From assembly GCF_900096895.1 (NCBI RefSeq), contig NZ_FMYO01000001.1, forward strand, positions 682,001 to 746,000: a stretch of 64,000 nucleotides of DNA. Direction: 5' to 3'. Each line of letters starts with the position of its first letter. Within the stretch, counting starts at the first letter, position 1. Source of the stretch: Acinetobacter kookii (GTDB taxonomy: Bacteria; Pseudomonadota; Gammaproteobacteria; Pseudomonadales; Moraxellaceae). Shown here piece after piece: positions 24,100 through 35,186 of the stretch. The notes under the pieces are model-generated. The model ran no database searches, was not told the origin of the DNA, and was given only the letters and a program-made list of their open reading frames with translations. Made by a program: the position numbers and the translations under genes.

Positions 24100-24277
24100 T
24101 GGTTATTAACCTGAATTAACACAACTTTACTCAAAACATCATGAAATGACTCTGCGTTCATTTTATTATGATTCCAATGCTTAGAGCTGTCATAGTTCTA
24201 ACATTCTCCTTAACCGAACTGTGCAAACAGATTCGTTGTTCTACGCAATGATCACCCCAATCATTGCGTATTTTTTT
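24100..24277 (+). ncRNA. aar: Probable small RNA downstream of trpS (Aar candidate)
   Basis: No ORF lies between the trpS terminator and lysS, yet there is a second, perfect plus-strand terminator at 24242-24277, which implies a separate non-coding transcript. In A. baylyi the small RNA Aar, about 180 nt and linked to amino-acid metabolism, was reported just downstream of trpS. Position, strand and length agree, but I cannot compare sequences. The 5' end is a guess; a later start near 24170 (TATTAT/TATGAT at 24164-24172) is also possible. Confidence 0.5.
24242..24277 (+). terminator. Terminator of the candidate small RNA
   Basis: An 11-bp perfect stem (TACGCAATGAT and its complement) with a CACCCCA loop is followed by seven Ts. 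No gene other than the proposed small RNA explains it. Confidence 0.9.
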
Positions 24278-24312
24278 GCCTGATTTCAGGTAAGCATGAG
24301 TTTCTATCCATA

Positions 24313-30770: not shown

Positions 30771-31676
30771 ATGGCTGCATTACCCTCTTTAAGACAGCTG
30801 TCATACCTCGTTACACTGTCTGAAACGCTGCATTTTACTGAAGCTGCGCGCCGTTCATTTGTGACCCAGTCAACTTTGTCAGGCGGGATCATGGAGTTAG
30901 AGCGCTTGCTAGGTGGAGTACTTGTTGAACGCGATCGCCAAAATGTGCGTTTAACTCCGCTTGGCGAACAGGTTGTTGCCCGAGCCCGTGTTCTATTGGC
31001 AGATGCACAAGACTTGATGCGTTTAAGTCGTGAAATGAGCGAACCCTTAACAGGTGATTTACATTTAGGGATTATTCCTACAATTGCGCCTTTTATTTTG
31101 TCTCAGCTTCTGGATGAAGTGCATAAGCAGCTTCCTAAAATTCAGCTGCACTTGCACGAAGCGCAAAGTGAAAAGATTGTCGAAAAACTCGAACACGGCA
31201 ATCTGGACATGATCGTGTTGGCCTTACCATTTGACACGCGTGGCTTAAAAGTTGCCGAAATTGCAAAAGAAAACCTGTATCTGGTTTACCATAAAGCGGA
31301 TCAGAATGCCCAGAATGCCCGCAGTTTGGATGATCTGGATTTATCTCGCTTAGTGTTACTTGAAGAAGGTCATTGCTTACGCAACCATGTATTAAGTGCC
31401 TGCCCAATTGGTGAACGTAAAAATGATCATCGCTTAAAAGCAAGTTCATTGCCGACACTGGTCGAAATGGTTTCTTCAGACTTGGGCTTTACCCTGCTTC
31501 CTGAGATTGCCATTCATACTCATATGATTAAAGCCAATTCCGATTTAGTGGTTAAATCTATCGAGGAAGCGCCAAGTCGTACGCTTGCCTTGTTGACCCG
31601 TAAAAGCACACCATTGCAAAGCGAGTTTGATGTACTGCTGCAAATTTTGCAAAAGATCACCCAGGATCTTCATTAA
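30771..31676 (+). CDS. oxyR: Hydrogen peroxide-sensing regulator OxyR
   Basis: LysR-type activator of peroxide defence. The 301-residue protein has an N-terminal winged helix-turn-helix (about 5-64; TEAARRSFVTQSTLSGGI in the recognition region) and a sensor domain whose redox pair is Cys202 and Cys211, in the spacing C-x8-C and context EEGHCLRNHVLSAC that match E. coli Cys199/Cys208. It follows estB by six bases, so it is probably translationally linked to it. The operon order equals that published for A. baylyi. Confidence 0.96.
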   Translation: MAALPSLRQLSYLVTLSETLHFTEAARRSFVTQSTLSGGIMELERLLGGVLVERDRQNVRLTPLGEQVVARARVLLADAQDLMRLSREMSEPLTGDLHLGIIPTIAPFILSQLLDEVHKQLPKIQLHLHEAQSEKIVEKLEHGNLDMIVLALPFDTRGLKVAEIAKENLYLVYHKADQNAQNARSLDDLDLSRLVLLEEGHCLRNHVLSACPIGERKNDHRLKASSLPTLVEMVSSDLGFTLLPEIAIHTHMIKANSDLVVKSIEEAPSRTLALLTRKSTPLQSEFDVLLQILQKITQDLH

Positions 31677-31770: not shown

Positions 31771-31918
31771 ATAAAAAAAGGTTTACCACCCGGATAAACC
31801 TTGTTTGAAGCAAATGGAAAAACTCTCATATGTGGATGAACGAAAAACCCTTCTTCAAAAATTGCTCACTTCTGAATTGCAAAACCACTCGAAGCAAGCT
31901 TATTTTATTCAACTATTC
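31771..31918 (-). ncRNA. Candidate small RNA, unit 1
   Basis: On the minus strand a TATAAA -10 (31930-31925) would start an RNA near 31918 that ends at a terminator: GGTTTA-TCCGGGTGG-TAAACC and seven Ts (31800-31773). Length about 147 nt, no ORF with an RBS. The same layout recurs exactly 204 bp to the right. The conserved loop (CCGGGTGG against CTGGGTGG) sits on stems of different sequence, as expected for selection on structure. Family not recognised. Confidence 0.55.
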
Positions 31919-31924
31919 CAGTAC

Positions 31925-31953
31925 TTTATATCCCTGATAATAGGTATTTTTTG
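31925..31953 (-). promoter_or_regulatory. Shared promoter-like element, copy 1
   Basis: Minus strand AATACCTATTATCAGGGATA followed by TAAA. Copy 2 has AATACCTAATTATAGGGATA and TAAA. The TATAAA end is a good -10; the upstream ATACCTA/TAGGGAT half-sites form an imperfect dyad in place of a -35, so an activator may be needed. Confidence 0.5.
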
Positions 31954-31973
31954 TTTCATTCTAAAAATAAAGG

Positions 31974-32122
31974 TAAAAAAATAGCTTATCCACCCAGATA
32001 AGCCATGTAAGGTAAAATATTTCTATTACTATGATTGTAATAAAAATATTGTAGCCCTTGGAGTTGAAATAGTCTTGCCGGATCACCCAAACAAAAAGTG
32101 TTATTATGCTATAGCGTTAAAA
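31974..32122 (-). ncRNA. Candidate small RNA, unit 2
   Basis: A second minus-strand unit of about 148 nt. The -10 TATAAA (32134-32129) follows the same upstream element as unit 1, and the terminator is GCTTAT-CTGGGTGG-ATAAGC, then TATTTTTTT (32003-31975). The interior differs from unit 1, so the two RNAs share ends but not their middle parts. Confidence 0.55.
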
Positions 32123-32126
32123 TCGG

Positions 32127-32156
32127 TTTTTATATCCCTATAATTAGGTATTTTTC
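32127..32156 (-). promoter_or_regulatory. Shared promoter-like element, copy 2
   Basis: Second copy of the element described at 31925-31953, offset by 204 bp, the same offset as the two terminators. Confidence 0.5.
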
Positions 32157-32371
32157 ATTATTTATAAGCATGAATAAGCTTTAAATAAAAGCAAAGAAAA
32201 TAAACTACAAGAAAAATCATAATAAAATAATTTTTGTTTAAATATGCTTTATTGTACAGATACTTAAATTTACTATAATTTTATAAATTCACTAGTTTCA
32301 GGGATAGCAGTTTCCTCGTTTTTATCACAAAGTAACAAGATAAAATATAAAACCAATGTGAGTACCACCTT

Positions 32372-33022: not shown

Positions 33023-33105
33023 ATCCGGAATAATTGATGAGTAAATCAATCACCTCAAGGAGTCCGAGGACTTATTGAGGTGATATGAAGGACACTGTTC
33101 CGGAT
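33023..33105. repeat. Long nested inverted repeat between converging genes
   Basis: Three sets of arms are nested: ATCCGGAA/TTCCGGAT (33023-33030 and 33098-33105), ATCACCTCAA/TTGAGGTGAT (33049-33058 and 33075-33084) and AGTCC/GGACT (33061-33065 and 33068-33072). The inner part can form a stem of about 15 bp. No T-run follows, so it is not a standard terminator. It lies between the response regulator and ppk and reaches the ppk stop codon. Confidence 0.75.
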
Positions 33106-35186
33106 TATTTGATCAGCTCTAATAATATCCGCTGTGCATTATGTGCTTCTTGCCCTTCAGCAACCTGTGCACGTAACCAGGTACCATCACTTTGCAGTAA
33201 CCACGCTTGCTGGTTATCCTTTAAATAATTCAGCAAACCTTGCTGGTAAATGCGTTTTTTCAATGCCGCATCTTCAATCGGGAAGCAGGCTTCGACACGA
33301 TTGAACAGGTTTCGGTCCATCCAGTCTGCACTTGAACAGTAAATCCGGCTCTCTCCTCCGTTCAAGAAGTAATAGACACGGGTATGCTCTAGGAAACGTC
33401 CTACAATGGAACGGACCCGAATATTTTCAGATAGGCCCGGCAAACCGGGACGCAGGCAGCAGATCGAGCGGATAATCAGATCAATTTGTACGCCGGCTTG
33501 AGAGGCTTCATATAATTTATTGATCAGTTGCATTTCCGTTAAGGCATTCACCTTGACAATAATTTGCGCAGGTTTACCGGCTTTGGCATTGGCAATTTCA
33601 TCATCAATGAAATTAATCAGCTGGGCATGCAGGGTGAAAGGTGCATGCAATAACTTTTTCAGTTTTGCCATTTTCCCCATACCGGTTAATTCCTGGAAAA
33701 TGCGGTGCACATCTTCACAAAGCTCTTTGTCCGTGGTCAGCAAACCATAGTCGGTATAAATACGAGCATTGCCGGCATGGTAGTTGCCGGTACCCAAATG
33801 TACATAACGCACCAGCTTGTTGTTTTCACGGCGTACCACCAGAATCATTTTGGCATGCGTCTTATAACCGACAATGCCATACACCACCACTGCTCCGGCT
33901 TCTTGCAGCACATTCGCGACAGCAATGTTGGATTCTTCATCAAAACGGGCACGCAGTTCAATTACCGCCGTCACTTCCTTGCCGTTGCGCGCCGCTTCAG
34001 CCAAGACCTGAACAATTTCAGAGTCCGGACCACTTCGGTATAACGTTTGCTTGATGGCTAAAACTTGCGGATCACGTGCAGCTTCACGCAGTAAATTAAT
34101 GACCGGGGCAAAAGACTCAAACGGATGATGGAGTAAAATATCCTGCTTCTGCATGGCAGAAAAAATATTTTCAGATTTTTTCAGCACTTTCGGAATCACC
34201 GGCGTATGCGAATCATAACGTAAATGCGGGCGCTTAAAATTGGACAACAATCGCGCCAAGTTAACCGGGCCATCGACCTTGTACAGTTGCTCTTCTTCCA
34301 GATCGAACTCATCCAGCAAATAGTCATAGATATGTTTCGGGCAATTATGGGTCACTTCCAGACGTACCGCACGACCAAAACGACGCGAATTCAGTTCCCC
34401 TTTCAGGGCTTTGGCCAAGTCTTCCACATCTTCGTTTAAGGCCAGATCGGCATTTCGGGTCACGCGGAACTGGTAACAGCCGGTTGCCGTCATGCCCGGG
34501 AACAGGTCTGAAACATGTTCATGAATAATGGCAGACAACATCACATGATGCTCTTTCCCCCCGGTGAGTTCATCCGGCAAACGCACGACACGGGGCAATG
34601 AACGCGGTGCAGGCACTACAGCCAGATCAATCTGACGGCCAAAAGCATCTTTACCTTCCAGGGTCACAATAAAGTTGAGGCTTTTGTTGACCAGACGCGG
34701 GAACGGATGTGCCGGATCAAGGCTGATCGGTGTCAGTACCGGCGCCACCTGCTCCTGAAAATACTTTTTCACCCAGGCTGACTGTGCAGGTGTCAGTTCG
34801 CCACGGCGCAAGAAACAGATATCTTCTTCACGCAATTTAGGCAAAATTTGTTCATTTAAAATGCGGTACTGACGCTCAATTGCCTCATGCGTGGTTTTGG
34901 AAATGATCTCCAGCACCTGTTTAGGGGTTAAACCGTCCGGGCTATGGCTTTCATTGCCTAAATCCAGTTGCTCCATCATCCCCGCAACACGAATTTCAAA
35001 AAATTCATCCAGATTACGGGAAAAAATAAGCAGAAAATTCATTCGCTCAAGCAAAGGATGCAAAGGATCGACCGCTTGCTCCAACACGCGCAAATGGAAG
35101 TCGAGAATAGAAAGCTCACGATTAATGTAGCGATCATTATATGCGTATTCTATTTGCGTCGGAGTCGTATTAGCAGCCGTATTCAT
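33105..35186 (-). CDS. ppk: Polyphosphate kinase
   Basis: Makes inorganic polyphosphate from ATP. The 693-residue PPK1 has the N-terminal domain opening [20 protein letters not shown] (in part), a head domain, and the catalytic half with [30 protein letters not shown] in part (phospho-accepting His) and the later His in HTRVYYF. Length is normal. It has no ppx partner next to it. In A. baylyi ppk and mtgA also lie near the rub operon. Confidence 0.96.

Follow-up and report, generated by a model that had tools for sequence, protein, structure and literature searches.

The window, that is, the whole 64,000-nucleotide stretch of the Acinetobacter kookii genome analysed here, contains two short intergenic units on the minus strand (Table 1). 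They lie between a LysR-type regulator gene, which we take to be oxyR, and RR1, a gene for a degenerate response regulator that is itself followed by the polyphosphate kinase gene ppk1. The oxyR-like gene converges on the units and RR1 points away from them, so that the units are not leaders of a downstream gene. Direct reading of the sequence confirmed the head-to-tail arrangement described in an earlier note on this DNA, with a period of 204 bp from element to element and from terminator loop to terminator loop. From the start of the upstream element to the end of the T-run, unit 1 spans 175 nt and unit 2 spans 177 nt. The length of about 148 nt first given for the units is replaced by predicted RNAs of 123 and 125 nt, counted from a conserved -10 hexamer. 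A search of the source genome with a model of the RNA body (R2, below) shows these to be its only two full units. Elsewhere in the window, positions 24105-24288 (plus strand) match the small RNA (sRNA) Aar in Rfam (RF02375, 121.6 bits), in keeping with Acinetobacter.

Table 1. Features of the oxyR-ppk1 interval, in window coordinates, with the basis on which each was assigned
Feature	Coordinates	Strand	Basis
oxyR-like LysR-type regulator gene	30771..31676	+	Pfam (LysR-type regulator); convergent neighbour, synteny anchor
Predicted sRNA 1, about 123 nt	31773..31895	-	Start predicted from the -10, end at the T-run
Unit 1 terminator hairpin GGTTTATC..GGTAAACC	31780..31800	-	Followed by T7 (31773-31779); covariation of the aligned stem
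Unit 1 predicted -10 hexamer TAAAAT	31902..31907	-	Conserved TAnnnT spacing
Unit 1 upstream element, dyad ATACCTA..TCAGGGAT, NarL 7-2-7 type (predicted)	31925..31947	-	Pattern match; dyad centre test; genus-wide link to response-regulator genes
Predicted sRNA 2, about 125 nt	31975..32099	-	Start predicted from the -10, end at the T-run
Unit 2 terminator hairpin GGCTTATC..GATAAGCT	31983..32004	-	Followed by T7 (31975-31981); covariation of the aligned stem
Unit 2 predicted -10 hexamer TAGCAT	32106..32111	-	Conserved TAnnnT spacing
Unit 2 upstream element	32129..32151	-	Pattern match; dyad centre test
Degenerate third element copy, upstream of the RR1 gene	32288..32310	+	Element-matrix score 13.0 (99% shuffle level, 12.3)
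RR1, orphan degenerate NarL-type response regulator (receiver and shortened LuxR-type helix-turn-helix (HTH)), 209 aa	32372..33001	+	Pfam; alignment with RR2
Polyphosphate kinase gene ppk1	33105..35186	-	Synteny anchor

The comparison set comprised 173 Acinetobacter genomes. Orthologs of unit 1 are present in G110, G107 and G011 (and in part in G105), and orthologs of unit 2 in G105, G110, G107, G042 and G108. That both units have orthologs in other species upholds the earlier proposal of tandem small-RNA-like genes with diverged middles. The close orthologs sit in the oxyR-ppk1 interval, where the unit of G127 is degenerate; in G160 no recognisable unit was found in this interval or by the R2 search. 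An RNAalifold consensus of 11 close units gave zero pairs, so a sequence-only model (R1) was used first and then a model with a hand-given terminator stem (R2). R1 located further units; its weaker matches were not counted; these include G155 (E 4.2e-4), G113:C18 (0.0086) and, in the source genome, a partial match at G000:C5:663753 (0.0036). R2, which describes the RNA body without the upstream element, has matches in 32 of the 173 genomes at E <=0.05. Without G071, whose match has no element, and G126 and G158, which are unchecked, about 29 species are left.

The upstream element lies outside the R2 model. We checked 12 matches that had not gone into building this model, leaving out second matches of G109, G151, G024 and G071 and the matches of G126, G158 and G127 (a second G087 unit was read by eye only). 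The element starts 47-49 nt before the body in 11 of the 12, the exception being G071, and scores above the 99% level in eight; TAnnnT stands at the corresponding place in nine of the 11 new bodies that carry the element. The check proposed in the earlier note, a model search of other Acinetobacter genomes together with the element-terminator spacing, was therefore positive.

Homology places 19 more distant units at two syntenic loci. Nine are at the oxyR locus, flanked by oxyR, ppk1 and an RR1-like gene that shares 30-37% identity with the window RR1, and ten are beside wzi, with cysD also within the stretch read in eight of the ten. Tandem pairs recur in G119 and G087. These data bear on the idea of a mobile or repeat element of the MITE type in place of RNA genes. 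Tandem copies with conserved ends and variable middles are what such an element would leave, but the source genome holds just two full units (plus the one partial R1 match), the positions in other species are fixed and syntenic, and promoter and terminator geometry is conserved. We rejected this explanation as extremely improbable.

Several species show damage at the locus. In G105, about 2.5 kb of inserted, insertion-sequence-like DNA breaks the unit 1 element and splits the pair (by eye). Between ppk1 and unit 2 of the same species (L085) there is an RR1 remnant and then short tandem repeats (TTTGGTTA), also read by eye, and the decay of the locus is apparently recent. G107 has an intact unit 1, but its unit 2 carries a deletion and ends in a weaker terminator, and its RR1 is truncated. 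In G161 an insertion-sequence-like stretch splits the single unit of the species across two contigs (L093, L138; by eye); this unit was included in the first alignment, and its element in the nine-element matrix described below, but it is not in the 11- and 20-unit alignments.

The window units and seven loci of relatives gave no match at the Rfam gathering score. Matches obtained at permissive thresholds (for example, STnc40 and rli43) were far below that score and were discarded. No description of these RNAs was found in the literature searched, from which subscription papers mostly fell outside and which included the available portions of PMC11472050 and PMC12802169.

Each window unit ends in a predicted intrinsic terminator. 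The two stems, GGTTTA/TAAACC and GCTTAT/ATAAGC, have different letters, both pair, and each is followed by 7 T. The terminator pattern by itself is no rarer than chance: the window contains two against 0.82 expected, and at least two occurred in 24 of 100 shuffled sequences. Across species, all 20 aligned units end in 5-9 T after a terminator hairpin (weak in a few), and 91.9% of cells in the aligned stem are paired, against 33-53% in slid controls. The number of paired cells, the 15 two-sided cells and the covariation score were each reached by none of 500 shuffles. The number of pairs with a two-sided change (four of eight) was reached by 52 of the 500, and the number of pair types by 97. 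The units were aligned by sequence, with the structure assigned manually after the window unit, and this gives covariation some advantage. As judged from this alignment, the terminator stem covaries, and the difference between the window units can thus be read as one of several compensatory changes. Of the two earlier claims made for the terminators, that of stems that differ yet pair is borne out; that of a conserved loop, CYGGGTGG, is not. The loop is common to both window units and nearly so in G105 but is absent from the other orthologs read. It changes among orthologs and is therefore not the conserved part.

In the distant relatives the predicted fold consists of a 5' hairpin, a linker, a second hairpin and the terminator. 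The 5' hairpin goes beyond shuffles (p <=0.033) in nine distant units and in the unit of G101. It does not in ten of the 11 close units (p 0.57 and 0.45 for the window units).

The covarying terminator stem also weighs against reading the units as genes for short peptides instead of regulatory RNAs. Some units do contain closed frames of up to 34 codons, and an element of the same kind precedes short open frames in two other genomes (by eye). The longest closed frame, however, varies from 5 to 34 codons across the 20 units, and the peptides differ save between near relatives. We consider a coding function very improbable and set it aside on these variable frames and peptides together with the terminator covariation.

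The second shared part is the upstream element. A 23-mer pattern of it, allowing up to three mismatches, occurs twice in the window, where shuffles give an expectation of 0.02. The symmetry of the element was examined on 26 copies, chosen by us from the units and from regulator upstream regions. The centre at 9.5 gave 156 of 234 complementary cells and the next best centre 102 of 234. This peak defines two inverted heptamers 2 bp apart (7-2-7). The heptamer TACCTAT of unit 1 fits the NarL consensus TACYYMT given in the available portion of PMC4886647. NarL sites with the 7-2-7 layout include some at about -40 to -49 of activated promoters (PMC4549865, consulted in part).

A hexamer of the form TAnnnT starts exactly 40 nt past the first base of the element in all 11 close units, a set that leaves out the unit of G127 because its element and terminator are degenerate; the runner-up position is found in four of 11. 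With this hexamer set at -12 to -7, the dyad centre falls at about -43.5 from the predicted start. The element had been called promoter-like. It is indeed shared by the two units and repeated 204 bp apart, but it is not a complete promoter: by its sequence it is an operator-like dyad of the NarL 7-2-7 type, upstream of the -10, and as such a predicted site.

A dyad beside a promoter can also repress, and the RNAs would then be made constitutively until shut off. NarL represses frdA in this way through a 7-2-7 site near the start (PMC4549865, in part). Against this, the centre at about -43.5 matches the activated 7-2-7 sites reported at napF (-40 to -49) and yeaR (-38 to -47) in the same partly available source, and the element appears to occupy the place of a -35. 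Repression therefore seems to us quite unlikely, and activation is the reading retained below.

Other copies of the element were observed outside the units. One in the source genome, ATACCTATTTTCAGGGATG at G000:C5:340315 (plus strand; about position 3016 of L095), has TTTAAT at the -10 distance and lies near genes that are presumably thiE-like and hemL-like; no terminator-ended unit was seen behind it by eye. Similar sites are present in G042 (C27) and G011 (C56). In two species (L089, about 2932, plus strand; L098, about 3021, counted on the minus strand) an element precedes a frame of about 27-32 codons whose product, translated by eye, is hydrophobic and membrane-like. At two further loci, L100 and L103, a response-regulator gene and a divergent gene for a likely surface protein are each preceded by an element. 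The product was tested in one of these two species, and the L100 stretch gave a weak match to the YadA head repeat, below the Pfam cut-off. The position before a likely surface-protein gene in two species hints at a surface-related response.

In the earlier note the loop and the element, and not any protein, seemed to be the conserved units. That no protein is involved is not supported, since the element was found upstream of a family of NarL-type response-regulator genes. Sites of the same kind were first seen before such genes and then tested with a matrix built from nine sRNA-unit elements alone, with the 99% shuffle level as cut-off. In the upstream regions of the best 72 regulators among the matches listed, 54 exceed this level (0.7 expected) and 18 are below it; in 51 of the 54 the site lies between -105 and -65 on the coding strand.

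The association extends to whole genomes. Element-plus-hexamer sites (up to two mismatches) average 2.99 in the 95 genomes with a regulator homolog among the matches listed and 0.58 in the 78 without, and the reversed pattern averages 1.52 and 1.08, respectively (one-sided rank test for sites with and without a homolog, p 1.6e-18, the species not being independent). A regulator homolog among the matches listed is present in 28 of the 29 accepted RNA genomes compared with 95 of 173 overall (p 1e-7, again with species that are not independent). On this association between sequences, the element belongs to the NarL-type response-regulator family.

The source genome contains two homologs of this family. 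RR2 (G000:C14) has receiver and LuxR-type HTH domains, its own upstream element and, directly downstream, a histidine-kinase-like gene. The window RR1 shares 37% with it. In the close-group species RR1 is 56-76% identical to that of the window, against 94-98% for the OxyR-like and PPK proteins. Which receiver residues matter is known from the receiver family. None of seven aligned RR1 proteins keeps the lysine of the GYVLK stretch of RR2, and two have lost the aspartate region. At the C-terminal end of the HTH, the sequence of the final 20 or so RR2 residues is kept in none of the seven. It is with its last helix that NarL forms a dimer on DNA (PMC4549865, in part), and this makes RR2 the likelier activator.

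Of 30 genomes examined, 26 have an RR2-type gene, that of G160 with a single in-frame stop. No such gene was found at that level in G024, G107 or G108, and in G105, which has also lost RR1, it is split into two pieces that contain stops. In G024 the RNA and an element-like site occur with no close regulator, and G108 has RR1 and an intact unit with no RR2. These two species are exceptions to the simple rule.

It may be asked whether the regulator of the sRNA genes is the local orphan RR1 rather than RR2, the locus then being a self-contained module of a regulator and divergent sRNAs. RR1 adjoins the units in the oxyR-locus group. G108 has an intact unit and RR1 with RR2 missing, and in G105 the absence of RR1 is accompanied by a broken unit 1 element. 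RR2 is broken in G105 as well, however, and no RR1 match was found at the wzi locus, where 10 loci were read for as much as about 1.5 kb to either side. The loss of the HTH end in all seven RR1 proteins, and of receiver residues in several, also argues against it, given the role of the last helix in NarL (PMC4549865, in part). We regard RR1 as an unlikely regulator and RR2 as the preferred one.

The bodies of the two window units are unrelated by alignment (z = 0.4), as the earlier note had stated for their interiors. Their 5' halves are likewise unrelated (z -0.4), with weak similarity in some cross-species pairs. Every one of the 24 comparisons between unit 1 and unit 2 was positive, with z from 0.1 to 3.3. 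G101 has one unit only, and this is similar to units of either kind (z 3.8-5.2 and 2.1-4.6). Exchange between tandem copies is possible in G101. Because the units have near-equal lengths, identical promoter geometry and this cross-unit similarity, their sequences fit a duplication followed by divergence.

Starting from the units, their promoter geometry and synteny, the terminator covariation and the association of element and regulator, all features of the sequence, we consider it probable that the pair are tandem sibling sRNA genes with their own promoters and terminators, activated by a NarL-type regulator (most likely RR2), which act by base pairing and have diverged after duplication. We infer transcription, binding by RR2, activation rather than repression, and pairing with mRNA. 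Minus-strand transcription of each unit would start at a promoter of its own (-10 TAnnnT) and stop at its intrinsic terminator. The shared element would serve as a 7-2-7 site, centred at about -43.5, for a NarL-type regulator, most likely RR2, and the adjacent degenerate orphan RR1 might take part alongside it. When the kinase senses its signal, the levels of the two RNAs would rise together. Both would act on mRNAs by base pairing, with a regulator in common and bodies that have drifted apart.

Targets were sought in 12 genomes using the complement of the hairpin loop (seven genomes, 35 sites) or of the linker (five genomes, 36 sites) as a seed. No convincing shared mRNA target emerged from the 60 of 71 sites read, at 30 loci per seed, some of them the sRNA genes themselves. 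Homologous frames recur in two groups (L305/L318/L324 and L316/L325/L328/L330), with the site inside the frame. Feedback on regulator leaders was assessed with 25 sRNA-leader pairs, which gave no excess pairing (mean z -0.03 and 0.15).

Several known systems have parts of this arrangement. In Vibrio the response regulator LuxO activates several related sRNAs (Qrr), one of which adjoins its gene; LuxO is sigma-54 dependent, whereas the window site is of NarL type. GacA, a NarL-type response regulator, also activates several sRNAs (CsrB/RsmZ). These RNAs carry many GGA motifs; the 20 aligned units have only 0-2 GGA each. Further parallels come from Listeria, which belongs to a different phylum from Acinetobacter, and from the streptococcal csRNAs, where organisms, regulator class and sequence all differ from those of the window units. 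The csRNAs resemble the pair as an sRNA family within one two-component regulon, CiaRH (PMC3091779, in part). The five copies of LhrC in Listeria similarly depend on one two-component system, LisRK, but LhrC is one multicopy sRNA with CU-rich sites (PMC4132741, in the portion available) and the window bodies differ.

The closest likeness is to OmrA/OmrB. These too are two tandem sRNA genes with shared ends and different middles, and they are under one two-component system, EnvZ-OmpR (PMC4211561, in part); for the window pair a single such regulator is predicted only. From the same partly available source, OmrA/OmrB vary in copy number and the two genes can be separated by an insertion element, much as about 2.5 kb of inserted DNA splits the pair in G105. 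There are also clear differences. The window units have no Rfam match, their predicted RNAs are longer (123-125 nt compared with 82-88 nt), their site is of NarL rather than OmpR type and, unlike OmrA/OmrB, the siblings have no conserved 5' segment, their bodies having diverged beyond recognition. By this analogy, the best-supported reading is that the window pair would work like OmrA/OmrB without being a member of that RNA family.

A broader, and in our view doubtful, extension is a genus-wide circuit headed by a canonical NarL-type regulator. This would drive sibling sRNAs that evolve fast and, in the divergent direction next to them, RR1, a decaying orphan copy of the regulator without the dimerisation helix and often without the phosphorylation residues. 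RR1 would act as a pseudo-regulator tuning sRNA output, and the components would be gained, duplicated and lost together.

The units define a probable Acinetobacter sRNA family without an Rfam entry, found in about 29 of 173 species, with a likely operator and a likely two-component regulator. The element provides a site that can be scanned for in defining a regulon. Since the copies keep their promoter and terminator and change their bodies, the units also offer a natural series for following how sibling sRNAs may diverge after duplication, a question raised for OmrA/OmrB (PMC4211561, in the portion available).
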